Assembly: GCF_040954645.1 (NCBI RefSeq)
Contig: NC_092807.1
Coordinates: forward strand, 76,648,021 to 76,712,020
Source of the DNA: Diabrotica undecimpunctata
Lineage: Eukaryota > Arthropoda > Insecta > Coleoptera > Chrysomelidae
Direction: 5' to 3'
Length of the DNA: 64,000 nt
In this document: positions 15,096-44,116 of the stretch, in pieces
How the letters are laid out: each line of letters starts with the position of its first letter
Numbering within the stretch: the stretch's first letter is position 1
Notes under the pieces: generated by a model
What the model saw: only the letters and a program-made list of their open reading frames with translations
Told to the model about the DNA's origin: nothing
Databases searched by the model: none
Made by a program: the position numbers and the translations under genes

Positions 15096-15640
15096 AAGAG
15101 TATAATACTATAATCCGGTTAGCAGCTGTGTAGGAATTTTAAACATATAGGTACTCCTCGTTGTTATTGCTGACAAATTAAGTGACTAAGATGAATTATA
15201 CTAAGAGATAGAAAAAAATAGCAGGTTAGGTTCTCGAAATAAATCAGTGCGGTAACAACTCATTTATATTTTTTTAAATAAAAATTATATAATATAAAAA
15301 AAAAGGTATTAATTAGTACTAATAAACGAAAACTATCATTAACCCGGCAATATTAAATTGATATATATAGTGGTAAACCGCCGTACAGGATTTTAAATGG
15401 ACAACTTAAAGAAATATCAGTTTCTAGTTGTTGGATATTTAACGAGATGACCCAACTGGTTGACTTTAAATGAATATTAATATAGATACTACCCCTACAA
15501 TTCATTGAACGTCTGCTGCTTGACAAAGGCGTACATTGACCTTTAATGCACACTGGTTGACACAGTTCTCTCATGCACACATATCTCGTACACTGCTCAA
15601 TATAGACATACAATTTCGTCATACACTCCCAATCAAACAA
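15096..15640. other. Intergenic/repeat sequence, nothing recognised
   Basis: AT-rich bases with no recognisable frame, TIR or repeat. They end exactly where the large inverted repeat begins. Confidence 0.5.
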
Positions 15641-16299
15641 CCAGTTTGAATGCTAACAATAATTTTTAGGAATTTACTCACAACGGGGTACTCAGAAACT
15701 TCATTTGCTTAATACACTTTTTGTTATCCTAAACCATTGTCTTTTTTAAATGCAACACAGATAAATGTCGTTCCATCCTGTCAAAAAACATCTTACTTTC
15801 ACTCTCTTATACTTTAACTTTATTGTTGGAAAAACTTTTAAATATTCGGAATTTAATAACATTTATTCAATCTAGCTATTGGAATGATACCAAAAATAAT
15901 TTTTGTGCACAGGGTTTTCAGAACTTTCATTTGCCGTTGCTATTCTAAACCATTGTCATTTTAATGACAGCACAAACATGTGCGCGCGCGACGACCATCG
16001 CATCAACCTTTCAATGAACGATTCTTACTATATTACTTAATCGTGTTACCAATAAAAATCGCCCGTGCAAGACGGAATAAGAACAGAGATGGTAAAAAAG
16101 GTGGATAACTCTAGAATCAATAAAAATCCTTAACAGATGCATAACAAATTATAGTCGTGGCACAACACACAAAAAGAGAGATCGAATAAACATGAACCGA
16201 CCAATTAGTCTTTTACCACACCCATGTAAATTATTAACAAAGATTACAACAAATAAATTAGATTTATACCAAAGACGGATTCCACAAAGGATACAGTAC

Positions 16300-16830
16300 G
16301 AATGATCATCACAGACACTCAGAAAAAAGCAAAAATTCCACTCAAGTTGGCATTTTTTAATAACGCTTGCGATTCCATAGAACAATGGGTGGCAATGGGT
16401 AGTTTATGCATTAGACAACGGCAGAATAGACCCCGATATAAAAAGCTCTTGGAAAACATTTATAGGAAAGTAAAATTTAAAGTTAAAATCTGTGAAAGCT
16501 CAATAAGGCACTATTAATGGGGAGAGGTGTCAGACAAGAAGATACGATGTCAGATAAGTTCTTTTCACTTGCTTTGGAGGATATTTTAAAAAACTGGAAT
16601 TGGAACAAAAAATGAAGGTATTAACATCGATGGACGCTACTTAAATCACTTGCGATGTTTAGATGACATTATACTGATTAGCACTTGTGCACAGGAGTTA
16701 CAAGAAATGTTAACAGACTTAAGCATTGGAGATAGTACCACTAAATATTGAGAAAATTAAGGTCATGTTAGCTACAAAGGTTGAAAATGTAGAAGAATAT
16801 GTGTATGAACAGTGTGTAACAGATTATGTG
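16300..16830 (+). pseudogene. Decayed non-LTR reverse transcriptase (left arm copy)
   Basis: Pieces in shifting frames recall a non-LTR RT: GRYLNHLRCLDDIILIS near 16635-16690, where LDDI stands for the catalytic FADD box, then QELQEMLTDLSI. Upstream stretches around 16300-16520 would be the preceding palm and fingers. Stops and frameshifts are numerous. The mirror copy is at 43010-43500. Confidence 0.6.
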
Positions 16831-17939
16831 TCCTACTAACTATCTTGCCGTTGGTAGGTACGTACTTCTTTATAAAAAGGTATATAGATACAAAAGGACT
16901 TGGGTTTATTTTTTTAATGGAATTTTCACTTGCATAGGAAATTTAATACTGTATTTTTAAAAACGTTATTTTTTTTATTGAACATAATTTTATTATTTCA
17001 TTGCCGAATTAGATGTTTTTTTTTTATTTGCGGAAATTTCGTAATGTATTTTATGTGTATTATGTATTTTTATGTAAGAATCCGATTAATAAGAGCTGCT
17101 TTTATTTCATCCATTATTTTATGTTATCTTGTATATCGCTTTTTTAATATTTATGTTTTGGTCTCATTTGTGTACTACATATGATATCTGGATAGAAGGT
17201 TATCCCAAAACAAATATGGTTAAGTGGTAAAATAGGTATTTGTGTTCAAATGGGTAGTAGTGCTCATGCAAAAAAGAAAGAATAGTTAATTTATTTAACA
17301 AAAATATACTACTTTGACCAATATTGTATACTTCTGAATGTTTTATCTCCTATTCAGGGGTAATAAGTAATCAATATAAGTAGTTAGTGTCAAATGTGCA
17401 ATTATCTTTATAAGCAATAGCTTACTGACTTCACTCTACATGTTGAGTCCAAATAATTAAACCTTGTCTCTTCAGAAAAGAGCACTTTAAATTGCAAAGT
17501 AAATTGCGTGCAGGCGATCGTGTTTTGTGCAAGCTTTTTCTAGCCTATGACAACTAAGGTGTGATGAATCTTGCACCACCCCACATTTATAAAGATTATC
17601 GGTATTTACGGACAAGAATCCTCCAGGCAGAATGAGAATAATAACTACCAGAAGGAAGTTCCTCATGAGAATTCAATTGGCGGGGATCAACTTCTTTTTT
17701 TTTTTTTGCATGATGAGTTTTTCTGGTATATCTTACAGTTTTTTCTTGATTTGAGTCGGCATACAAAGGGCTGGTATTTGTGGAATGGATTTTACGAATC
17801 TAGACTTTGTTTGTTTCGTTCTCTAGCGAGTTATCTTCGAATATTAGGTATGGTGATAGCTACGATATGGTAGAGCTTATGTATGGATCTGAGTCTTATT
17901 GTAACAAACTTCCGCTGGTGATTTTTGTTGACTCACTTA

Positions 17940-18400
17940 TAACTAAATATACGTGACAAGTATGTGTTGATATCACCCATGCTGGCAAGGTATATTCGGC
18001 AGCAGAACCATATAGTGCAAGCGTCTATGTTTTAAGGGTGGAAGGATGTGCGCCCCATTTTTAGCTGACAAGCTTGCGGAGAATATTATTTCTGGTCCTC
18101 AGTTTGCCTTTTAGTTTTAAACAATGTTCTGTAAATGACAGCGTGCGATATAAACTATCTTCAAGGTATTTATAGGAAGTCCAGAGTTCAAGGTTTACAT
18201 AACACTATTGAATGTTAAGTTTTGTAAAAGCGTCTGTATTACGGAAATTTAAGAAGTACAACTGAGTTTTTCCGAAGTTTGGCTTAAAATTCTTTCGTAG
18301 TGTAATACCAATTACCCTAGGTTTGGCGTAATTCAGTCTTCTATGTGTTTCCTGCACTAAAAATATATCACATTTGTATAAGCGCATATGTCTCATAAGG
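17940..18400 (-). pseudogene. Jockey-like non-LTR remnant with internal deletion
   Basis: On the minus strand an endonuclease-domain piece (CDIFLVQETHRRLNYAKPRV) runs directly into an RT thumb piece (NFKPNFGKTQLYF), skipping everything between. The right arm copy (40540-41880) still has about 865 bp at this junction, so the left copy suffered a deletion. Further thumb sequence continues to about 17940. Confidence 0.65.
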
Positions 18401-20329
18401 TTAACTAAAGTAAAGTTTCTTTATCTCTAGATATGTCCTCAATATTTATAGACATAATTAGAATAGTTGATCCTAAAAAGAACCGATTTGACCAAATTAT
18501 ATTGAACAGAAGGCTCCTTCTTTGAACCCCATAAGTAATGGCTATTCTTTTTATTTTTTATTAAAAATTTAAATTTTACATACTGACTATTACTTTTCGA
18601 CGATTTTTCAAATCAAATTTGTATAGTATCTGTTGGTAAAAAAAGAGTCTCTTTGTGAAAAGTAAATAAGTTTGTAATATTGGTCAGAACTCATATATGG
18701 ATAATAAGCAAATCAACAGTTACATTGAGTGTATAAAATTTCAATTACATAATATATTATATCGGCGCAGGAGATAGGTTTATATCAGAGATCAAAAGTT
18801 ACATGTCTATTCCGGGTTCTATTTAGTCTTTACGTATTTTCATTACTTAAAGAGTGCGAAAAGGCATGCTTATGCTTTTTATTTTTTTAAATATTTTCTA
18901 CTACGTCCTCTCTACAGTCCCCTCTTTTTTGAACAACCTGTGTTATTTTTTTTAATTAAGCACTTGTCCAGAGCTATTTAAAATACTCTGTCCTCTGCTA
19001 TTACATTAATATGACTGGTTCATTATTTCCTTTCTTTCTTGCAGCCATTAATGAATGTTGTTTATCCTGAGTATCTTCCGCGTATCACTATTTCTTCTGT
19101 GTATTAGGATTTTTAATTTTGGTTGTTATTAAGATTCTCATTTCAAGTGTATCTAAATATAAATATCACCTCGACGTGTTTACTACTAGTCTTGTTTCTG
19201 CGGTACGAATATCCATGTATCATGATAGGTGGTAACGCGTAGTTTATTTAATGTATTTAAAGTATCTTTTGCCAATTGCTTTCTTACTTTATTTAATGTA
19301 GTTAAAGTACCCTTCACTTTTGAAAATTTCTTTCTCACTTCTTCAGCAATAGGTCTCTTTTCCTCATCAATACTGTTCTCGCTCGATACAGTTATTCCAA
19401 GACATTAAGATTTCACTATATGCTCTATCATTTGGTTTTTATCTAAAATTTACACCTATAGCAAATTTTTTATAATATCTGATATATTGGTATTAAACTG
19501 GAGTAGAATATTTTTTAGACAATATTTGTTTTGATTATGCCTGTTTTACAATCTAGTGCACAAAAGAATAAATGTTTATGTGTTCAGTGTTTTCTAATAC
19601 TGCAAAACTTAAACAGGCCTACATATTAGAATATACAGGGTAATTTATGAAGAATGTCCAATTTCTTAATTGAAGTTTTATACCTCAAAATATGCCTACA
19701 GGCCTTATACAAATATTACTCTTTTCTGAGATACGGGAAGTATAAATAAATATGGATTTTAAATTTCACAATGATTTTTTATTATTTTTTAATTATTTTC
19801 TTGTGGCGTTTTGTAACTGTTGAAGTTTTTTCTTGGGAATAAGATTCAACATGATTTTATATTTTATTTGACGTTTTAATCTTCAAATCGGAGTTCATTT
19901 TTCGAAAAACTATAAAATTGTGACACAAATTACTATATAAATATATTCTCATGCGGTAAGCTTATGCTGCTCTGCTTCTTTTATATATGTCTCCCCCCAT
20001 TTCTATTCACAATTCTTTTAATTTTTTCAATGCTTAAGCCATTTTGGTATATTGTCAATATTTTTGAGGTGCGTTATTTTTAGATGACTGTGTTTAAGGA
20101 TGGTGCATTTGATTACATGAAATTGACTTTAATTTAATAGTTTTCATTCGATTAGTATAAAATTAGTATGATGATAAATGACTGGCATATGTTGGTACTA
20201 TATATAAAGTTCAACATATGGGAATAAGAGCATTATGTTAGTAATTTCAGGGTAAATTATGACGAAACCAAAAATAACCCATGATATTCTTCCCTTGATC
20301 TTAAGTACTTTGCAGTGATTTTTATTAAT

Positions 20330-20335
<6 letters not shown>
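18401..20335. other. Arm sequence without recognisable genes
   Basis: Apart from its match to the right arm, no gene or transposon end is seen. A 190-bp stretch at 18396-18586 is unique to this arm. Confidence 0.5.

Positions 20336-20373
<38 letters not shown>
20336..20373. repeat. (AT)n tract at the insertion point of element B
   Basis: AT run cut by the left LTR of element B. The ATAT at 20370-20373 and the ATAT after the right LTR at 26716 fit a 4-bp target duplication. Confidence 0.95.
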
Positions 20374-20379
<6 letters not shown>

Positions 20380-20723
20380 GAATTTATTAATTGTTATGTC
20401 TTTAATTTATAATGCCTTTATCGAAGGGTTCTTATCGTAATTTATTAAAAAGCACAATAACTGATATTAATTTATTTATCACTAAAAATACATAATTTAT
20501 TAAAAGGCGAGCGTAACAATAAATATCGCGAGCGCGTCTTCAGAATTAACTGTTCTCTTCAATCAAAGTTCGGTTATTTTATATGAAATCCTGATATACT
20601 AGAATAGTCGAGAACATCTAGTTGGAGGATTCACCATAATTTGATTCTAGACCTCCACCGAAATTTCTACAACAAAACAAAATAATTAGTCATAAAATTT
20701 AGGCCAGTATATTTATGGTAACA
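20374..20723 (-). repeat. 3' LTR of element B
   Basis: 350 bp, TGTTACCATA to ATTCACAACA on the minus strand, with three differences from the 5' LTR. The stop codon of pol (20713-20715) lies inside this LTR. Confidence 0.98.
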
Positions 20724-23700
20724 TTGCCCCCCTCTTAAAAGATGGTTCCTCCTGGAACCTTGTCGGGACTGGAACCGGAACTGTATGCTGGTATCGGCAA
20801 CTGGACCCTCTTTTACAACTTCCAGTTGTATAAAAATGACAAGGGACGGTTTTCTCTCCGAACAAGGTACTTAGCGGATTGCAACAGACTAACACCTGGA
20901 CTTCGGTGTCTTTGAAGATCTCCTCCACCATATTTCGGATAACCCTCCAATCTAATTGGCGGCACTCCAACTTTGGCATGGCTAACTTTTGCACGTCGGA
21001 CTCTAGTACGTGCTCTCTCAATTGAAGTAAGGCTTCCCATACATCTCGGTACGTAGGTTGGTCACGGGCAGTGTCTTTTGTTACCAGGTAGAAAAGGTAA
21101 CGTGATGCATCTTGGAGCTTCAAGGTTTTACCGGGAGCTGGCACTTGGCATTGAAGTTCTGCAACTCGACCAAACTTCCTTCGAAAGACGGATGCCAACC
21201 CTGGTGCGTCTTTGATACTGGCCGGGATGGTAAGGGCCAGCGAGTAGTCATCGGGGAGCGCGAGTAGATCTTGCTTTTCTTCAGTGGTAACACCATGTCT
21301 TGCTTTACCGGTACCTCCATAGGCACCCATGAATTCCTTAAACGTGAGGTCAGACACGTCTTGGACTTGGTTTACTTCCACTTCTTCATCTACGTCGTGG
21401 TCACCTTCGAAAGACGCTAGCCGGTTATGGTGTACTATCATCGGCTTTCCCCTCGGAATCTTGCTTATTCGGTAGATGACATCGTTGATCTTCTCCATAA
21501 TTAGGTATGGGCCTTCCCAAAACTGCTGCAATTTGGGAGAACAACCTTTTCGCTTCTTGGGATTATAGAGCCAGACCTTGTCGTTCTTCTTAAAGCAACC
21601 CTTTTCGGCTTGTGTATCGTACCGTTTCTTCATTCGGTCGCTAGCGATCTGAATGTGGGAACGGACCAACTCATGTACATCGTCCATTCTTCTTCGTAAT
21701 TCGGTCACATAATCTTCACCTGCTACATCTTCTCCAGGTCGACACCCAAATTCTAGATCACAAGGTAGTCGCATTTCGCGTCCGAATAGGACTCTGGCTG
21801 GTGTCTGGCCTGTTGATTCGTTAACAGCAGATCTGTAGGCCATTGTGAAGAACGGAAGGTATTGGTCCCAGTCTCGCTGATGATCGGACACCATCTTTGT
21901 CAAATACTTGCCGACTGTCCTATTCATCCGTTCTACCATACCATCAGATTGCGGATGATATGCTGTAGTTCTTGTTTTCTTCATGCCTAGTCTATCACAT
22001 ATTCCTTGGAATATATCGCTTTCGAAGTTCCTGCCTTGGTCACTATGTATCTCCAAAGGCACTCGAAATCGGCTGATATATTCTTGGATCAATTTATCTG
22101 CAACGGTGGCGGCCTTCTGGTCTGGAAGTGCGTAAATCTCGACCCACTTAGTAAAGTAATCCATTACTACCAACATGTACTTGCCTCCATTTTCACTTTC
22201 TGGAAATGGCCCAGCGATATCCAAAGCTATTCTTTCAAACGGGCTTCCAACATTATATTGTCTCATAGGAGCTCCCCTTTTTCGGTAAGGCCCGTTACTC
22301 GTGGCACAAATAGTACATTTCTTACACCAGTCTTTTACATCGTCGGAACTGTTCATCCAATAAAACCGTTCCCGAATTCGCTGAAGGGTTTTCTTTACAC
22401 CAAAATGCCCTCCCGATGGACTGTCGTGTAACTGACGAAGTACTTCGGCTATTCTGCTCTTTGGGATCACCAACTGTCTTCTCTTCTCTGAACCGTCATC
22501 ATTTTCTAGGACTCGTTTGAGCAAGCCATCTTCGATGATAAATGAGTCCCACTGGGCCCAATACGTCTTAACTACTGAGCATAGGTTTGATATTTCCTGC
22601 CAAGGTGGTCGACGGTTTTCCTCTTTCCATTTTCGGATTTTCTGTATAACTGTATCTCTCTCTTGTTCTTCCCTTATCTTAGTAGGCGTCCAGTCGTCGT
22701 TGACAATCGTCGTTCTTAGCACTGCTGCTTCCTTGGATTCCGTTTTGTTGCAGTGGGAACACTCTGCTGGGCATGGCCTTCTGGAAAGAGAATCAGCGTT
22801 TCTATGGCTAACTCCGGCCCGGTGCTCAATCTTAAAATCGTATTCTTGGAGTCGTTCGATCCACCTGGCTATCTGACCCTCTGGATTCTTAAACTGCATC
22901 AACCACTTAAGGGCGGCATGGTCGGTTCGGATTAGAAACTTTCTGCCATAGAGGTATTGATAGAAGTGCTCTACTGATTTCACTACTGCCAGAAGTTCTC
23001 TTCTCGTGACGCAATAATTCCGTTCTGGTTTTGAAAGAACTTTACTAAAATATCCGAGGACTCGTTCCTGTCCTCCTTGAATCTGAGACAGCACTCCTCC
23101 AATTTCCACATTACTTGCATCCGTATCTAAGATGAACTCTCCTTCTGGCAGTGGATACCCCAAAATTGGTGCTGTTATTAAATGCTTTTTCAACGTTTCA
23201 AAGGCATTTTGGCAGTCTATATCCCAGCGGTATTCTCTTGCTTCCTCTGTAAGTCGCGTTAATGGCTTAGCGATATCTGCAAACTTCTTAATAAACCTCC
23301 GGTAGTAAGTACATAGTCCAAGAAAACTTCTCACTTGATGTTTGTCAGTTGGTTTTGGCCATTCCTTAATGGAATCGATTTTTCCCTTATCCACGGCCAC
23401 TCCTTCTTTACTGACTATATGACCCAGATAATTGACTCTACCTTGAAATAGCTGGCACTTCTTGGGGTTTAGCATCAATTGGGCAGCTTTAAGTCGATTA
23501 AAAACGTTTTCTATATTCCTCAAATGATCTTCAAATGTCTCCCCCAAGACGATTATGTCATCTAAATAAACCAGGCATGTTTTCCAAGATAACCCTCTCA
23601 ACACATTTTCCATAAGCCTCTCAAATGTCGCAGGAGCATTACAGAGTCCAAATGGCATAACGTTGAATTGCCACAATCCAGATCCTGTGGTGAAGGCTGT

Positions 23701-24567
23701 CTTTTCTTTATCTACTGGGTCCATTTCTACCTGCCAGTATCCAGACTTCAAATTCAAAGTAGAAAACAATTTACTTCCAGCCAATGTGTCCAATGTATCA
23801 TCGATCCGAGGCAGAGGATAACTATCTTTCTTGGTAACGTTGTTCAGCAAACGGTAATCCACACAGAACCTCGTCGTTCCGTCTTTCTTCTTAACCAGGA
23901 CCACCGGAGAGACCCATGGGCTCGTAGAAGGTTCTATCACCCCGTCTTTCTTCATTTCCTGAACAATCGTTTCAGCTTCCTCTCTTTTCGCCTGTGGTAA
24001 TCGTCGAGCTGTTTGACGAATTGGCTTAGAATTACCAGTATCGATTTTATGCTTAACAACCGTAGTTCTTCCCGTCTTTCCTCCTTTCGGTACGAAAATA
24101 TCACGATACTGCCGAAGAAATTCCCTTAATTTCCTTTTCTCCATCTGATTTAGAGACTGTCCTGCAACTGCAACCATTTGGTCGAATTTGTCGTTGGAAT
24201 TATCAGATGTTGTCGCCTGACGGATTATGGATGTCACAGGTACACAAGTTCCTACTTTTGTCTCTTTCTTTATGGTCACTGGGTAGTCGTTGACATTGAT
24301 AAGTCTCACAGGAATTTCCTTAGCCGAAGTCACCAATTCTTTTCCAATTATGATTCCACGGCCAACCTCATCGTCGTGGTTCCAAGGCTCCATCATAACA
24401 GGTCTCCCTTCGTCCACCATTCCCTGTAGCCGCGCTACTATGATCGTTTCGCTTCTCGCAGGCACGACTGTATCTTCTGTAATGGCTGCTTGCACAGTGT
24501 TGTCATTATGTAGATGGAGAAATACCTCCTCGTTGCCAACTTTGATTACCTTATTCTTAAAATCCAA
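20713..24567 (-). CDS. Element B pol: RT, RNase H, integrase, macro-like domain, CCCH finger
   Basis: 1284 codons, uninterrupted. RT about 200-380: SPVVLVKKKDG, FSTLNLKSGYW, MPFGLCNAPATF, catalytic YLDD at 334-337. RNase H about 478-600: DTDAS (481-485), RTDHAAL, ADSLSR. Integrase: H2C2 finger about 714-754, catalytic Asp783, Asp843 and Glu879 (35 residues between the last two, as in the family), then a GPY/F module near WEGPYLI (1017-1023). Residues about 1100-1228 read as an OARD1/TARG1-type macro domain and 1243-1261 as a CCCH zinc finger. The listed TTG start is not a real initiator: the frame continues upstream through one TGA into the protease. The polyprotein would act in virus-like particles and the nucleus. 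Confidence 0.95.
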   Translation of the reverse strand: MDFKNKVIKVGNEEVFLHLHNDNTVQAAITEDTVVPARSETIIVARLQGMVDEGRPVMMEPWNHDDEVGRGIIIGKELVTSAKEIPVRLINVNDYPVTIKKETKVGTCVPVTSIIRQATTSDNSNDKFDQMVAVAGQSLNQMEKRKLREFLRQYRDIFVPKGGKTGRTTVVKHKIDTGNSKPIRQTARRLPQAKREEAETIVQEMKKDGVIEPSTSPWVSPVVLVKKKDGTTRFCVDYRLLNNVTKKDSYPLPRIDDTLDTLAGSKLFSTLNLKSGYWQVEMDPVDKEKTAFTTGSGLWQFNVMPFGLCNAPATFERLMENVLRGLSWKTCLVYLDDIIVLGETFEDHLRNIENVFNRLKAAQLMLNPKKCQLFQGRVNYLGHIVSKEGVAVDKGKIDSIKEWPKPTDKHQVRSFLGLCTYYRRFIKKFADIAKPLTRLTEEAREYRWDIDCQNAFETLKKHLITAPILGYPLPEGEFILDTDASNVEIGGVLSQIQGGQERVLGYFSKVLSKPERNYCVTRRELLAVVKSVEHFYQYLYGRKFLIRTDHAALKWLMQFKNPEGQIARWIERLQEYDFKIEHRAGVSHRNADSLSRRPCPAECSHCNKTESKEAAVLRTTIVNDDWTPTKIREEQERDTVIQKIRKWKEENRRPPWQEISNLCSVVKTYWAQWDSFIIEDGLLKRVLENDDGSEKRRQLVIPKSRIAEVLRQLHDSPSGGHFGVKKTLQRIRERFYWMNSSDDVKDWCKKCTICATSNGPYRKRGAPMRQYNVGSPFERIALDIAGPFPESENGGKYMLVVMDYFTKWVEIYALPDQKAATVADKLIQEYISRFRVPLEIHSDQGRNFESDIFQGICDRLGMKKTRTTAYHPQSDGMVERMNRTVGKYLTKMVSDHQRDWDQYLPFFTMAYRSAVNESTGQTPARVLFGREMRLPCDLEFGCRPGEDVAGEDYVTELRRRMDDVHELVRSHIQIASDRMKKRYDTQAEKGCFKKNDKVWLYNPKKRKGCSPKLQQFWEGPYLIMEKINDVIYRISKIPRGKPMIVHHNRLASFEGDHDVDEEVEVNQVQDVSDLTFKEFMGAYGGTGKARHGVTTEEKQDLLALPDDYSLALTIPASIKDAPGLASVFRRKFGRVAELQCQVPAPGKTLKLQDASRYLFYLVTKDTARDQPTYRDVWEALLQLREHVLESDVQKLAMPKLECRQLDWRVIRNMVEEIFKDTEVQVLVCCNPLSTLFGEKTVPCHFYTTGSCKRGSSCRYQHTVPVPVPTRFQEEPSFKRGAMLP
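20724..20740 (-). other. Polypurine tract of element B
   Basis: On the minus strand AAGAGGGGGGCAA stands immediately before the 3' LTR. The pol reading frame runs through it. Confidence 0.85.
20785..20841 (-). other. CCCH zinc finger at the pol C-terminus of element B
   Basis: CHFYTTGSCKRGSSCRYQH has the C-X7-C-X5-C-X3-H spacing of single-stranded-RNA-binding CCCH fingers. It differs from the CCHC knuckle that gag already supplies. It lies about 15 residues after the macro-like domain and 23 before the stop. Binding to element or host RNA is inference. Confidence 0.85.
20884..21270 (-). other. OARD1/TARG1-type macro-like domain within element B pol
   Basis: Pol residues about 1100-1228. Segments that match the family layout: DDYSLAL, then a Gly-containing loop, GLASVFRRKFG, ASRYLFYLVTK, QPTY, LAMPKLEC, QLDW, and the final strand VQVLVC. 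The Lys of YLVTK (residue 1164) corresponds to the catalytic Lys of TARG1-type ADP-ribosyl hydrolases. The loop after LEC is about two residues shorter than in the hydrolases and lacks the usual Gly-x-Asp, and the first loop lacks the usual Asp. Binding of ADP-ribose is therefore possible, but hydrolase activity is doubtful. Confidence 0.72.
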
Positions 24568-25253: not shown

Positions 25254-26294
25254 TCAATAAACCGGCCAATTTTCCATCATGTCTTCGGGAGCTGTTGGAT
25301 AAGCATATCGTACTAATCTGGCAATATCTACCTCATATTCTTGAAGAGCCTCATCTTTCTTCTGTCTACGATTTTTAAGCTGCGACTGATATACATGCTC
25401 CAAATGTTCGTGGCCATATCGCATATTTAACCTCTTCTTCAGTTGTTCGAAATCATCGGTCTCCTCTACGGCTATGGTCTGAAGCACATCTAAGGCATCT
25501 CCTCGAAGAGCGATAGTCAGGTTTACCGCCTTTTCTTTTTCAGACCATCCATTTGCTCTTGCGGCTGATTCGAACTGTTTCATGTAGTTGTTCCATGACG
25601 ATTTTCCATCGAAAGTTGGGACTTTAACATGAATAGAACCTCCACTTCCTTCAAATTTCGGCCGTGTCTCCAACTTACATTTCGTCTCGTCTTCTTTTAT
25701 CTCCACTGTAATCGGATTGTTACCTCTCTCTGCTGTCCCTGTTTTCTCCATCTTCCTTTCCATTTCTTTCATCTTTTCTTCGAAGGCCAACATATCGGCA
25801 GCAACTTGATTTTTTAACGAAGATATTCTATCGTCGAGGGCAGACATCTCAGAAGTGACTTTAGAGATTTCCGAAGAGATGTTAGCAGAGACTTTGCTTT
25901 CCAGCGAAGAAATCTCGTTAGAAACTTTGTCTTCCAACGAAGCGATGTCGCCGGAAACTTTGGCTACATCACCAGAAACTTTGGCTACATCAGAAGAAAC
26001 TTTCGAAATATCGTCAGAAACTTTGTTCTCTAATGATGCGATGTCACCATAAACTTTCGAAATATCGCCAGAAACTTTGTTCTCCAATGATGCGATGTCG
26101 CCGGAAACTTTCGAAATCGACGAGAGGACAGCATCTTCAAATATATAGGTCTCTGGATCTAGTCCTTCTTCTAGCAAAGTGTTCTTTAGTCGTTGGACTA
26201 ACTCAGCCTTTTTTCCGGTAGAAGCTAATTCTCTGTCTTCAAGATGTCTTCTTAAATTAGTCACTGTCAGCTCATAAATCGTAGCCATTTTCAC
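25254..26294 (-). CDS. Element B gag: SAP-like motif, repetitive coiled coil, gag core
   Basis: 346 residues. Residues about 5-40 (LTVTNLRRHLEDRELASTGK, then LVQRLK) fit the SAP helix-turn-helix motif that binds AT-rich DNA or chromatin. Residues about 55-185 form a coiled coil built of short repeats such as KVSGDIASLEN and KVSSDVAKVSG. About 225-346 is the retrotransposon gag core, with MKQFESAARANGW and QLKNRRQKKDEALQEY. The frame ends early at ENWPVY through a frameshift. It starts at an ATG 72 bases inside the 5' LTR. Confidence 0.9.
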   Translation of the reverse strand: MKMATIYELTVTNLRRHLEDRELASTGKKAELVQRLKNTLLEEGLDPETYIFEDAVLSSISKVSGDIASLENKVSGDISKVYGDIASLENKVSDDISKVSSDVAKVSGDVAKVSGDIASLEDKVSNEISSLESKVSANISSEISKVTSEMSALDDRISSLKNQVAADMLAFEEKMKEMERKMEKTGTAERGNNPITVEIKEDETKCKLETRPKFEGSGGSIHVKVPTFDGKSSWNNYMKQFESAARANGWSEKEKAVNLTIALRGDALDVLQTIAVEETDDFEQLKKRLNMRYGHEHLEHVYQSQLKNRRQKKDEALQEYEVDIARLVRYAYPTAPEDMMENWPVY

Positions 26295-26363: not shown

Positions 26364-26365
26364 TT

Positions 26366-27160
<795 letters not shown>

Positions 27161-33469: not shown

Positions 33470-33487
33470 ATATATATATATATATAT
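33470..33487. repeat. Short (AT)n tract
   Basis: Left-arm remnant of the AT tract seen at 38718-38814 in the right arm. Confidence 0.9.
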
Positions 33488-35448
33488 TTGAAAAAATAGA
33501 GGAGAAAATTCTGTACAGGCGGTTAAACAGCTGATCTGTCAATTTAGAAATGAGAAAAAGTACCAACTTGCTAAAAAGCATACCCATACACAAAAGTGAT
33601 GATAAATGTATTGTGCAAATTTTAGAGTTATATTACTTATTAACATAGGATATAAAGTATTTTAAACTATCAAATAGGGATTATTAGTGTGGAATTAGAA
33701 AAACTTAATAAACCGTTGATCAAGTATTCACTATTAGGCAGTTAATGAGACATGTTGGGAATACGATAAAAAAACATTAAACTAGTTATTTATATATTTT
33801 AATTAACAAACATATGATATAATCATAAGATTAAAACTATGAAATGACATGGCAGAACTTACCTAAGAAATTAATTAATTTAACAAGCAGTAGGTAATCT
33901 ACAAGTAAAGTAACATTTGAAAGAAAGCTGTCGACTTATTTTTAAATGAACATTGAGCTTAAACAGGAATATTCCATGTTTCCACTAGTCTTTAACATCG
34001 CTTTGGAGAACATCGCCTGGAAAGCAAATACAGAAAATTTCACAGATTAATAATCAGGATCCTTATTATACGGATGTTCACCTATGACTTTAATATACTA
34101 GCGAATATAATTATTAGTAACTGTTGCTTTTTAAACATACGATGACCTTTATATAACAAATAAAGCCATTAGAAAGGGGGTATAATGTCTACTATCCATC
34201 TTGAACTGGCTGATTTTCTTCCTTTGGCATTGGGTCTATATATTACCATAGAAAATTAAAGCCATATAACAATATGAAATGCTTTTTTAACAAGTAAAAT
34301 CAATAAACAAATAATATATACATAAAGATTATATAAATTCTAAATATTTACAAATTAAAATATGCGTGGTAATGATATTAAAAAGTAGTCATAACCTAAA
34401 GTGATTTTAAAAAAGGTGAACGAATTAGCGTAACAGCTGTTCTGAGAACTAAATATGATAAGACGAATTGTGGATATCTATGATATGATACGGCAGGAAA
34501 GATTAATGACTTTACAGCTGATTGCCACATAAATATCAATGTAACGCAAATAGGATGATTTTGTATAAAAGACAAATAATATTATATAATAATCTATATA
34601 TAGATACATATAGTTAAATAAAACTACAACTATTATAAAATATAGTAAATATTTGTTTAAATAAACGTAAAATGTTCCACTGAAAGTTAACGATAAATAT
34701 TAAAAAATAAAGGTTAATAAATGTTTTTTAATTCACGGCACACGATTTAATAAAGATCAGCACACAAGATAAATTCGTAACAAAATGCATATACTACTAG
34801 TAAACGTTACTCGATGCAGCAGCAAAGTAATTCTGGAAATAAATATGTAGGTTGTACTTTACCTCAATAGAATCATAGCAACAGCTATCGAAAAAGATGT
34901 CTTCTTTGACATACATCAAACACAAAAGAATCGGCGATAGCGCAAAGGGCAGCTACCCCTTAACCAAGACACGACTGTCTTGTTTGGCAGATGGAACTCG
35001 TCTCTTCGATGACTGAGCAGCGTCCACCCCTACTCGATGGAACCACTCTTTGTTATACTGGGCTAATTATACGAAAAGAATCAAAACTAACCAAAAGTTT
35101 GTTAATATTTTAACAATGTTTTTATATAGTTTCGAAACTGCAACAATAACAACAAAAATTTACATTCAATACCAAAAAGCGCAAAAACAGGGTCCTCCAA
35201 GTAAACGAGGATAAAAATATATGACTATTATAACAATAGAACGACGAAACATGATAGGACATATTATTTCAATAGAGAGTACAACTTTGAAATGATTCAT
35301 CTGTCTAAATATGTGGTAGCTTAGATAACTTTTTAACAGAAACCTTACAAAAGATATTAACAACAGAATACAAACTAGCAATCGCTCCTTGTTTTAAGCA
35401 AAAAAAATAAAATAAAAAAATATACCATGCAATACCAAAAAAAAAATA
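33488..35448 (+). repeat. Left inner arm of the giant inverted repeat
   Basis: Reverse complement of 36755-38717 with few differences. For example the 71-codon frame 35166-35381 (minus) is repeated exactly at 36823-37038 (plus). It contains no gene I recognise. Confidence 0.93.
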
Positions 35449-35450
35449 AA

Positions 35451-36754: not shown

Positions 36755-38819
<2,065 letters not shown>

Positions 38820-40539
38820 ATTAATAAAAATCACTGCAAAGTACTTAAGATCAAGGGAAGAATATCATGGGTTATTTTTGGTTTCGTCATAATTTACCCT
38901 GAAATTACTAACATAATGCTCTTATTCCCATATGTTGAACTTTATATATAGTACCAACATATGCTAGTCATTTATTATCATACTAATTTTATACTAATCG
39001 AATGAAAACTATTAAATTAAAGTCAATTTCATGTAATCAAATGCACCATCCTTAAACACAGTCATCTAAAAATAACGCACCTCAAAAATATTGACAATAT
39101 ACCAAAATGGCTTAAGCATTGAAAAAATTAAAAGAATTGTGAATAGAAATGGGGGGAGACATATATAAAAGAAGCAGAGCAGCATAAGCTTACCGCATGA
39201 GAATATTTTTATATAGCAATTTGTGTCACAATTTTATAGTTTTTCGAAAAATGAACTCCGATTTGAAGATTAAAACGTCAAATAAAATATAAAATCATGT
39301 TGAATCTTATTCCCAAGATAAAACTTCAACAGTTACAAAACGCCACAAGAAAATAATTAAAAAATAATAAAAAATCATTGTGAAATTTAAAATCCATATT
39401 TATTTATACTTCTAGTATCTCAGAAAAGAGTAATATTTGTATAAGGCCTGTAGGCATATTTTGAGGTATAAAACTTTAATTAAGAAATTGGACATTCTTC
39501 ATAAATTACCCTGTATATTCTAATATGTAGGCCTGTTTAAGTTTTGCAGACTTAGAAAACACTGAACACACAAACATTTATTCTTTTGTGCACTAGATTG
39601 TAAAACAGGCATAATCAAAACAAATATTGTCTAAAAAATATTCTACTCCAGTTTAATACCAATACATCAGATATTATAAAAAATTTGTTATAGGTGTAAA
39701 TTTTAGATAAAAACCAAATGATAGAGCATATAGTGAAATCTTAATATCTTGGAATAACTGTATCGAGCGAGAACAGTATTGATGAGGAAAAGAGACCTAT
39801 TGCTGAAGAAGTGAGAAAGAAATTTTCAAAAGTGAAGGGTACTTTAACTACATTAAATAAAGTAAGAAAGCAATTGGCAAAAGATACTTTAAATACATTA
39901 AATAAACTACGCGTTACCACCTATCATGATACATGGATATTCGTACCGCAGAAACAAGACTAGTAGTAAACACGTCGAGGTGATATTTATATTTAGATAC
40001 ACTTGAAATGAGAATCTTAATAATAACCAAAATTAAAAATCCTAATACACAGAAGAAATAGTGATATGCGGAAGATACTCAGGATAAACAACATTCATTA
40101 ATGGCTGCAAGAAAGAAAGGAAATAATGAACCAGTCATATTAATGTAATAGCAGAGGACAGAGTGTTTTAAATAGCTCTGGACAAGTGCTTAATTAAAAA
40201 AATAACACAGGTTGTTCAAAAAAGATGGGACGGTAGAGAGGACGTAGTAGAAAATATTTAAAAAAATAAAAAGCATAAGCATGTCTTTTCGCACTCTTTA
40301 AGTAATGAAAATACGTAAAGACTAAATAGAACCCGGAATAGACATGTAACTTTTGATCTCTGGGATAAACCTATCTCCTGCGCCGATATAATATATTATG
40401 TAATTGAAATTTTATACACTCAATGTAACTGTTGATTTGCTTATTATCCATATATGAGTTCTGACCAATATTACAAACTTATTTACTTTTCACAAAGAGA
40501 CTCTTTTTTTACCAACAGATACTATACAAATTTGATTTG

Positions 40540-41880
40540 AAATATCGTCGAAAAGTAATAGTCAGTAGACATATGCGCTTATACAAATGTGACATATTTT
40601 TAGTGCAGGAAACACATAGAAGACTGAATTACGCCAAACCTAGGGTAATTGGTATTCAGCTTATCGCTGGAAATCACATGGCAATTATGGAAATGCTCTC
40701 TCTGTGGACAAAGAAACAAAGAAAAACTCAATGTGAGAGAGGACAAAACCAGTCAGCTGAGGGAACCTTTTAACGATGTTGAGCTTGCATCCAACATCTA
40801 CATGTATAATGAAAAATGATATGGCTCCCAAGATTGTGGATCTAAGCACACAGCCAATTACGAAATTTGGACCAAAACAACTACAATGGCTTTTCCGGTC
40901 CTGAATGATATACATGTACTTAAACTATGCAGAAACCAAAGTCTGGATACAAGCCAAAGTTATTACCTTGCTTAAACTCCGACGACCACAAGAGCTATCG
41001 GCCAATATCCTTATTTCGTCGGCTATTTAAAATACTTTTGCACACGGTCCTTAATATAATTTCACCGATAATAGAAGAAAAAACAGGAAAAATCATGTAC
41101 GTTAAAAATAATAAATCTTACCCAACACAGCGAAAACAGGTACGAAAGATATCAGATATCCTGGATGGTATTTGTCAATCTTAATGTCGCTTACGACACC
41201 TTAAATTAGAGGACAATGCTTCAAAAACTATATAACATTTCCTTAGATAATTAGTTCCCTTGTATTATCTGCGTATGCCTACAGAAAAGATTTTTAGTAT
41301 TACTTAATGGCAAGAATACCAGATGGAGAATGCAGAAGAACGGTCTCGCTTGAAGTAGCGTAATGCCATCTACACTGTATTACATATACACAAACGATCA
41401 ACCCATACCAGTAGATAATAGGACGAAATGTAGACGATATTGTTGCACAACCAAAAACTTTTGTTGCTGAAGTGGAGAAAAATCTAAATGATGCCGCAAA
41501 TACTATAAAAATACACTGCGAAAGAATTTTAAGCCAAACTTCGGAAAAACTCAGTTGTACTTCTTAAATTTCCGTAATACAGACGCTTTTACAAAACTTA
41601 ACATTCAATAGTGTTATGTAAACCTTGAACTCTGGACTTCCTATAAATACCTTGAAGATAGTTTATATCGCACGCTGTCATTTACAGAACATTGTTTAAA
41701 ACTAAAAGGCAAACTGAGGACCAGAAATAATATTCTCCGCAAGCTTGTCAGCTAAAAATGGGGCGCACATCCTTCCACCCTTAAAACATAGACGCTTGCA
41801 CTATATGGTTCTGCTGCCGAATATACCTTGCCAGTATGGGTGATACCAACACATACTTGTCACGTATATTTAGTTATAAG
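40540..41880 (+). pseudogene. Decayed jockey-like non-LTR retrotransposon (right arm copy)
   Basis: Successive fragments follow the order of a jockey-type ORF2: endonuclease (CDIFLVQETHRRLNYAKPRV), RT fingers (SYRPISLFRRLFKILL), palm (VAYDTL), then thumb (NFKPNFGKTQLYF, RTLSFTEHCLKLKGKLRTRN, WGAHPSTLK, ALYGSAAEYTLPVW). Stops and frameshifts separate them and the catalytic box is not clearly preserved. The element is long dead but more complete than the left arm copy. Confidence 0.78.
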
Positions 41881-43009
41881 TGAGTCAACAAAAATCACCA
41901 GCGGAAGTTTGTTACAATAAGACTCAGATCCATACATAAGCTCTACCATATCGTAGCTATCACCATACATAATATTTGAAGATAACTCGCTAGAGAACGA
42001 AACAAACAAAGTCTAGATTCGTAAAATCCATTCCACAAATACCAGCCCTTTGTATGCCGACTCAAATCAAGAAAAAACTGTAAGATATACCAGAAAAACT
42101 CATCATGCCAAAAAAAAAGAAGTTGATCCCCGCCAATTGAATTCTCATGAGGAACTTCCTTCTGGTAGTTATTATTCTCATTCTGCCTGGAGGATTCTTG
42201 TCCGTAAATACCGATAATCTTTATAAATGTGGGGTGGTGCAAGATTCATCACACCTTAGTTGTCATAGGCTAGAAAAAGCTTGCACAGAACACGATCTCC
42301 TGCACGCAATTTACTTTGCAATTTAAAGTGCTCTTTTCTGAAGAGACAAGGTTTAATTATTTGGACTCAACATGTAGAGTGAAGTCAGTAAGCTATTGCT
42401 TATAAAGATAATTGCACATTTGACACTAACTACTTATATTGATTACTTATTACCCCTGAATAGGAGATAAAACATTCAGAAGTATACAATTTTGGTCAAA
42501 GTAGTATATTTTTGTTAAATAAATTAACCATTCTTTCTTTTTTGCATGAGCACTACTACCCATTTGAACACAAATACCTATTTTACCACTTAACCATATT
42601 TGTTTTGGGATAACCTTCTATCCAGATATCATATGTAGTACACAAATGAGACCAAAACATAAATATTAAAAAAGCGATATACAAGATAACATAAAATAAT
42701 GGATGAAATAAAAGCAGCTCTTATTAATCGGATTCTTACATAAAAATACATAATACACATAAAATACATTACGAAATTTCCGCAAATAAAAAAAAACATC
42801 TAATTCGGCAATGAAATAATAAAATTATGTTCAATAAAAAAAATAACGTTTTTAAAAATACAGTATTAAATTTCCTATGCAAGTGAAAATTCCATTAAAA
42901 AAATAAACCCAAGTCCTTTTGTATCTATATACCTTTTTATAAAGAAGTACGTACCTACCAACGGCAAGATAGTTAGTAGGACACATAATCTGTTACACAC
43001 TGTTAATAC

Positions 43010-43500
43010 ACATATTCTTCTACATTTTCAACCTTTGTAGCTAACATGACCTTAATTTTCTCAATATTTAGTGGTACTATCTCCAATGCTTAAGTCTGTT
43101 AACATTTCTTGTAACTCCTGTGCACAAGTGCTAATCAGTATAATGTCATCTAAACATCGCAAGTGATTTAAGTAGCGTCCATCGATGTTAATACCTTCAT
43201 TTTTTGTTCCAATTCCAGTTTTTTAAAATATCCTCCAAAGCAAGTGAAAAGAACTTATCTGACATCGTATCTTCTTGTCTGACACCTCTCCCCATTAATA
43301 GTGCCTTATTGAGCTTTCACAGATTTTAACTTTAAATTTTGCTTTCCTATAAATGTTTTCCAAGAGCTTTTTGGATGGAATCGCAAGCGTTATTAAAAAA
43401 TGCCAACTTGAGTGGAATTTTTGCTTTTTTCTGAGTGTCTGTGATGATCATTAGTACTGTATCCTTTGTGGAATAATTCTTTGGTATAAATCTAATTTAT
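43010..43500 (-). pseudogene. Decayed non-LTR reverse transcriptase (right arm copy)
   Basis: Mirror copy of 16300-16830 with the same LDDI-containing segment (near 43140-43190) and similar damage. Confidence 0.6.
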
Positions 43501-44116
43501 TTGTTGTAATCTTTGTTAATAATTTACATGGGTGTGGTAAAAGACTAATTGGTCGGTTCATGTTTATTCGATCTCTCTTTTTGTGTGTTGTGCCACGACT
43601 ATAATTTGTTATGCATCTGTTAAGGATTTTTATTGATTCTAGAGTTATCCACCTTTTTTACCATCTCTGTTCTTATTCCGTCTTGCACGGGCGATTTTTA
43701 TTGGTAACACGATTAAGTAATATAGTAAGAATCGTTCATTGAAAGGTTGATGCGATGGTCGTCGCGCGCGCGCACATGTTTGTGCTGTGTTTAAAATGAC
43801 AATGGTTTAGAATAGCAACGGCAAATGATAGTTCTGAAAACCCTGTGCACAAAAATTATTTTTGGTATCATTCCAATAGCTAGATTGAATAAATGTTATT
43901 AAATTCCGAATATTTAAAAGTTTTTCCAACAATAAAGTTAAAGTATAAGAGAGTGAAAGTAAGATGTTTTTTGACAGGATGGAACGACATTTATCTGTGT
44001 TGCATTTAAAAAAGACAATGGTTTAGGATAACAAAAAGTGTATTAGGCAAATGAAGTTTCTGAGTACCCCGTTGTGAATAAATTCCTAAAAATTATTGTT
44101 ACCATTCAAACTGGTC

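Follow-up and report, generated by a model that had tools for sequence, protein, structure and literature searches.

The 64,000-nucleotide stretch of Diabrotica undecimpunctata DNA analyzed here, called the window below (contig NC_092807.1 of assembly GCF_040954645.1, forward-strand positions 76,648,021 to 76,712,020), contains a long terminal repeat (LTR) retrotransposon, element B, whose pol reading frame runs on behind the integrase into a TARG1/OARD1-type macrodomain and a CCCH zinc finger. The LTRs, the polypurine tract and the order reverse transcriptase (RT), RNase H, integrase identify it as a Ty3/Gypsy element (Table 1). The two LTRs are 99.1% identical over 351 bp and the macro segment is an open frame. 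However, gag shifts frame at the end of its open reading frame (ORF) when the frames are compared side by side, and an in-frame stop lies between the protease part and the pol ORF. The copy is young, yet not intact. A first interpretation of this DNA from its letters alone, the sequence-only reading, had described an intact frame in a very young element, which is correct for the macro segment and for the age of the copy but not for gag and protease.

Table 1. Features of element B, with positions in the window.
Feature	Position	Strand	Remarks
3' LTR	20373..20723	-	TGTTAC...ACAACA; inner end certain to about 1 base
Polypurine tract	20724..20736	-	AAGAGGGGGGCAA; translated within pol
pol ORF	20713..24567	-	RT, RNase H, integrase, linker, macrodomain, CCCH finger
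CCCH zinc finger	20785..20841	-	CHFYTTGSCKRGSSCRYQH; pol residues 1243-1261; PF00642, E 7.7e-7
TARG1/OARD1-type macrodomain	20878..21297	-	pol residues ~1091-1230
Shortened loop PKLECRQLDW	20947..20976	-	shorter by two residues than in TARG1; position of Asp125 lost
Lys codon (TARG1 K84 equivalent, in FYLVTK)	21076..21078	-	from sequence alignments
Integrase p58-type C-terminal (GPY/F) module	21415..21513	-	pol residues 1019-1051; PF22938, E 8.9e-13
gag ORF	25254..26294	-	N-terminal SAP PF02037, E 2.7e-6; Retrotrans_gag PF03732, E 2.2e-6
5' LTR	26365..26715	-	followed by primer-binding-site-like TGGTGTCAGAA

A TARG1-type macrodomain behind the integrase

The segment behind the GPY/F module matches TARG1 with an E-value of 5.7e-22 as a single sequence and 3e-45 as a profile. 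Fold searches agree: together with the profile searches they place the segment in the macrodomain fold and in no other, and its sequence relationships assign it to the ALC1-like (TARG1) class. The fusion proposed in the sequence-only reading is thereby confirmed. The general Macro model of Pfam does not list the window copy among its matches and found the proteins P0009, P0014 and P0019 only weakly, under the cut-off; because the model passes over the window copy, its silence was not taken as absence. The NCBIfam DarG model NF048014 gives the domain 30.2 bits, far short of its cut-off of 250, and by that measure it does not qualify as a DarG antitoxin.

The adjoining CCCH finger has the spacing C-x7-C-x5-C-x3-H. 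In the tail piece it scores 29.3 bits with PF00642, above the curated cut-off of 20.5, and among PDB sequences it matches a finger of CPSF4 (E 2.1e-6).

The fusion is a family trait

Copies were sought in the assembly of 1.74 Gb. With the tail protein as query, all 150 scored rows show 97-100% identity over at least residues 1-194, and three contain stops; these rows are the best 150 of 5867 first-look candidates and not a random sample. Copies were also picked blind to the macrodomain, by integrase-core DNA alone (best 40 of 2176 candidates, the window included), and the expected macro site was cut out in the other 39. The macro segment occupies the expected place in 39 of the 40 integrase-selected copies, L041 being the one stretch that lacks it, and the CCCH end is reached in 37, two of them starting late. 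A stop interrupts the segment in 5 of 39 and gaps occur in five. The integrase-macrodomain fusion is the rule across copies, and further genomic copies, as anticipated from the window, do carry it; it is not a peculiarity of one insertion.

Insertion flanks gave no clear target bias at the 21 of 33 loci with an alignable LTR end, many of them badly aligned. Element B itself sits in a (TA)n run (20335-20372 and 26716-26730). A preference for such targets was considered and dropped, since element B and L030 are in (TA)n and the remaining copies whose LTR end is clear are not. Inverted near-copies, 98-99% identical, occur at 15640-20373 and 38776-44115 and flank the left side of element B; positions 33470-35449 and 36755-38733 form another inverted pair. 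The SAP domain at the start of Gag is also present in many of the Aromia relatives described below; a DNA-binding SAP domain within Gag is seemingly unusual.

Relatives and a second Diabrotica family

A short query of the protein database returned seven matches: 'OARD1-like' models of D. virgifera, D. undecimpunctata and Nilaparvata, two chimeric-looking models, and P0001, a 299-residue integrase-macro-CCCH piece. A long query from integrase to tail, with the tail scored, returned 12, of which 11 have the integrase p58 domain; the matches include P0008 (1339 residues, 67%) and P0009 (47%), two contigs of the source 'lgn' (presumably Logan), and nine proteins of Aromia moschata (42-47%). Aromia is a longhorn beetle (Cerambycidae) and Diabrotica a leaf beetle (Chrysomelidae). 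When an Aromia protein served as query, 169 proteins passed and 120 were listed; together with the long-query search this gave 121 listed Aromia proteins. A scan of viral contigs for relatives confirmed none.

The Diabrotica models named OARD1-like, tachykinin receptor 86C and LOC114337827 (P0002, P0003, P0005, P0006 and P0007) hold pieces of the element tail and probably represent element fragments mistaken for host genes in the annotation. The Nilaparvata lugens 'OARD1-like' protein (P0004) groups with the beetle element macrodomains, apart from host-type TARG1, a hint of horizontal transfer or of a broader distribution.

A host-like macro piece, P0019, found a single best locus in the genome, L103 (G000:C3:100934206-100934619, minus strand). 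Its open frame of 760 residues extends well past the macrodomain and contains intact GCGLDRLDW and FYLITKK motifs; from its sequence, L103 would be a host gene. The same query revealed a separate set of element copies, a second Diabrotica family: all nine loci cut from 149 further rows (L104-L112) are element copies, eight of them showing the integrase C-terminus within the stretch that was read. The Aromia query gave rows of 46-47% over about residues 4-200 in the Diabrotica genome, many of which belong to this second family, as the places they share with P0019-query rows show. The rows obtained with P0009 had 47-49% identity, and all 20 loci that were cut from them belong to the window family.

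A macrodomain tree of 13 sequences separates all element macrodomains and the Nilaparvata sequence from L103, P0019 and human OARD1 with support of 98/96, and a ten-row macrodomain tree gives the same split (99/98). An integrase C-terminal tree supports two groupings, one of element B with P0008 and one of the Aromia rows. It does not contradict co-inheritance of integrase and macrodomain but is too small to serve as proof.

Each Diabrotica family has lost a different half of the catalytic dyad

TARG1 uses Lys84 together with an acidic partner, and when that partner is mutated, a covalent intermediate is left (PMC7050489). The residue equivalent to Lys84 (Lys91 of the piece) is a lysine in all 83 unique window-family copies, mostly best-match copies, six of which have a stop somewhere in the segment. 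D27, L28, Y87, L88, V89 and T90 are invariant as well. The acidic partner, D125 in the GCGLD loop of TARG1, is missing from the window family: the loop is two residues shorter and the glycines beside the Asp position are gone. The fold of the window copy and other pocket residues are retained. The second Diabrotica family shows the opposite pattern relative to TARG1, with Arg replacing the catalytic Lys in all 15 sequences (L104-L112 and six further pieces) and the loop Asp retained in 14 of them.

Among the 121 listed Aromia proteins, FYLVTK occurs in 116, GxDxLxW in 117, both in 113 and the CCCH finger in 105; Lys is present in all 119 of the 127 Aromia segments that cover the site. P0009 also keeps the loop Asp. 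Among the best candidates that were scored, no full-dyad element family was seen in Diabrotica.

The shortened Asp loop had been recognized in the sequence-only reading, which took it to indicate a reader rather than an eraser of ADP-ribose. The loop is indeed short, but this does not decide between the two, because DarG is active without an acidic partner. The CCCH finger, the gag and protease lesions and a second family lacking the other half of the dyad add to that first account.

The distribution of dyad states is most simply read as a single capture of a macrodomain, initially with the full dyad, before the element lineages split. The Asp loop would then have been lost on the line leading to P0001, P0008, the window and D. 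virgifera, and Lys replaced by Arg on another.

Selection on the macro segment

In 28 copies, ranked by protein similarity of the macro-bearing segment itself, the ratio of nonsynonymous to synonymous polymorphism (pN/pS) is 0.20 in the macro segment and 0.14-0.15 in the integrase. Clusters were also drawn from integrase DNA alone (two with at least four copies; 51 of 55 unique copies used), and within them pN/pS is 0.27 and 0.18 for the macro segment and 0.28 and 0.14 for the integrase. In the integrase-selected copies the short flanks of the domain vary freely, with values of 1.83 for the hinge and 0.82 for the tail. The CCCH finger has a pN/pS of 0.19 in these copies (bootstrap 0.08-1.53) and had one of 0.73 in the earlier set of 28 when the hinge was counted in; how far the finger itself is constrained is therefore uncertain. 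Pairs binned by silent distance gave 1.14 for the closest and 0.19-0.29 for the others; these values were not relied upon because the binning itself creates part of the trend. Net divergence of the macro part between the two clusters (nonsynonymous about 0, synonymous 0.005) is too small for use. Purifying selection on the macro segment is moderately well supported.

Proposed function

We propose that a Ty3/Gypsy lineage of chrysomeloid beetles took up a host-type TARG1 (ALC1-class) macrodomain once, and that the domain, retained by selection, engages ADP-ribose near the integrase complex to the benefit of the element; we give this interpretation a probability of roughly 0.6. The sequences show the fold, the fusion, its many copies, the separation from host-type TARG1, the dyad states and, to a moderate degree, the constraint; the single capture, binding of ADP-ribose, the target and the benefit are inferred. 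That the domain could steer integration or blunt a host response, as conjectured in the sequence-only reading, is likewise hypothetical. The CCCH finger may have been gained with the macrodomain or later, the two lying in the slot behind the GPY/F module and next to the 3' LTR. Moving with the integrase, the module would meet ADP-ribose on proteins or nucleic-acid ends near the integrase-cDNA (or RNA) complex, where it could counter PARP-type silencing and repair signals or use them for docking, while the finger would keep RNA or DNA close by. The domain of the Aromia-type lineage may be a hydrolase with the complete Lys/Asp dyad. Both Diabrotica families, the window family with Lys only and the second with Arg/Asp, would have altered chemistry, leaving either a binder or an eraser that is slowed, limited to a single turnover or DarG-like.

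TARG1-class enzymes strip ADP-ribose from phosphorylated DNA and RNA ends (PMC8385414), TARG1 removes it from thymidine (PMC8501950), and DarG, with its Lys conserved and no acidic partner, removes it from DNA (PMC7050489). In Drosophila without PARP-1 several mobile elements tend to go up, including members of the gypsy superfamily (PMC7712786).

Several observations weigh against the proposal. In integrase-selected copies the macro pN/pS is higher, at 0.44 (bootstrap 0.23-0.93), and comparisons of shared with singleton differences, which have low power, were not significant, either in these copies, where the direction even runs counter to selection (0.79 shared, 0.50 singleton, p 0.74), or in all copies (0.28 shared, 0.56 singleton, p 0.09). 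Constraint among the youngest copies is therefore only moderately supported; the earlier suggestion that the domain has been kept under selection agrees with the low pN/pS values and the invariant Lys, and less well with these comparisons. Loss of one dyad residue in each Diabrotica family, with loss of the loop glycines in the window family, could mean that ligand binding is lost too. The effect of PARP-1 on mobile elements is possibly indirect according to its authors, and for some of the elements it has weak statistical support (PMC7712786).

Among other explanations, the domain could be a pure binder, a non-catalytic dock for ADP-ribose through which the integrase complex is held at repair sites or PARylated chromatin; the two families would have lost catalysis by separate routes. 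The two half-dyad states, the preserved fold of the window copy and other preserved pocket residues would fit this, but DarG works on DNA with Lys alone, and the partner mutant of TARG1, which forms a covalent intermediate, is still reactive (PMC7050489). The limited set of insertion flanks, many of them badly aligned, gave no clear target bias, and with the full dyad so common in Aromia a reader need not hold for the whole lineage; we regard it as a doubtful account overall. The present sequences would suit a binder as well as an eraser. Erasure directed at the element's own nucleic acids, with ADP-ribose taken off phosphate ends of cDNA or RNA or off thymidines in a DarG-like, Lys-only reaction in the window family, seems unlikely given the Arg at the catalytic position in the second family and the deletion of the glycines next to the Asp; a search for evidence that beetles ADP-ribosylate DNA found none.

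The segment might instead be a structural or RNA-binding tail with a vestigial pocket, stabilizing pol or acting with the CCCH finger in RNA packaging. Twofold erosion of the dyad and the low finger ratio in integrase-selected copies, for all its wide bootstrap range, are in its favor. Yet invariance of the Lys and its neighbors in the window family, and of the Lys in Aromia, makes a tail without pocket function hard to sustain, the constraint on the finger is itself uncertain, and we rate this account as improbable too. That a host-gene piece merely drifts along in one copy, by chance read-through or as a passenger, has almost nothing to recommend it: lesions in gag and protease and the stops in integrase-selected copies would suit it, but it is contradicted by the copy counts in both searches (the 150 full-length rows being best matches), by the occurrence of the fusion in the second Diabrotica family of elements and in longhorn beetles, and by pN/pS below 1.

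A more specific and more tentative version, with the odds against it, is that the integrase-linked macrodomain, taken up a single time from a TARG1-like ancestor, interferes with host ADP-ribose signaling as viral macrodomains do, be it PARP-based silencing or the ADP-ribosylation of cDNA ends, and has split into complementary Lys-only and Asp-only half-dyad families within the same genome.

Comparison with known systems

Macrodomains are a tool of RNA viruses against host ADP-ribosylation. Their macrodomains are part of a viral, often a replication, protein. Structural matches of the window domain include those of alphavirus nsP3, rubella virus and Kadipiro virus VP8. The alphavirus and rubella matches, both from RNA viruses, have 9-15% identity and belong to another macrodomain class. 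The first-ranked viral structural match in BFVD was VP8 of Kadipiro virus, an insect-borne reovirus (29% over 205 columns, root mean square deviation 16 overall); VP8 is a putative macrodomain. DarG, the macrodomain antitoxin of DarTG, is bacterial and paired with a DNA-modifying toxin, unlike the element domain. TARG1/OARD1 (C6orf130) itself is neither fused to pol nor followed by a CCCH finger as the element domain is. Chromodomain-bearing Gypsy elements (chromoviruses) also carry a reader domain behind the integrase, but the chromodomain reads histone methylation and is not homologous to the macrodomain.

In fish, epsilon-like endogenous retroviruses have been described with ORFs for a macro domain (PMC4977317, citing Basta et al. 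2009). There the domain is encoded by additional ORFs, whereas in the beetle Ty3/Gypsy element it is an in-frame fusion to pol. Capture of modifying enzymes by retrotransposons is known from DNMT (PMC5890265) and, for a demodifying enzyme, from an AlkB m6A (N6-methyladenosine) demethylase in orchid Gypsy elements (PMC9289625); the idea is the same, but the chemistry and hosts are different. The latter study screened 121 angiosperm genomes and found 15 extra domains, and section 12 of that paper names no macrodomain. Among the matches listed by a search of open-licence papers, no macrodomain in Ty3/Gypsy was found and the fish retroviruses were the only mention.

Several beetle and planthopper 'OARD1-like' gene models thus appear to be pieces of elements and not host genes. 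The series of full dyad, Lys only and Asp only is a natural one in which one can ask what TARG1-type catalysis serves. With a macrodomain joined to integrase in so numerous a group of beetle elements, ADP-ribose would seem to be a battleground for retrotransposons as well, and such elements may tamper with the ADP-ribose signal of insect DNA repair and jumping-gene silencing. If interference by half-dyad domains is true, retrotransposons and the insect would be engaged in an arms race over ADP-ribosylation.
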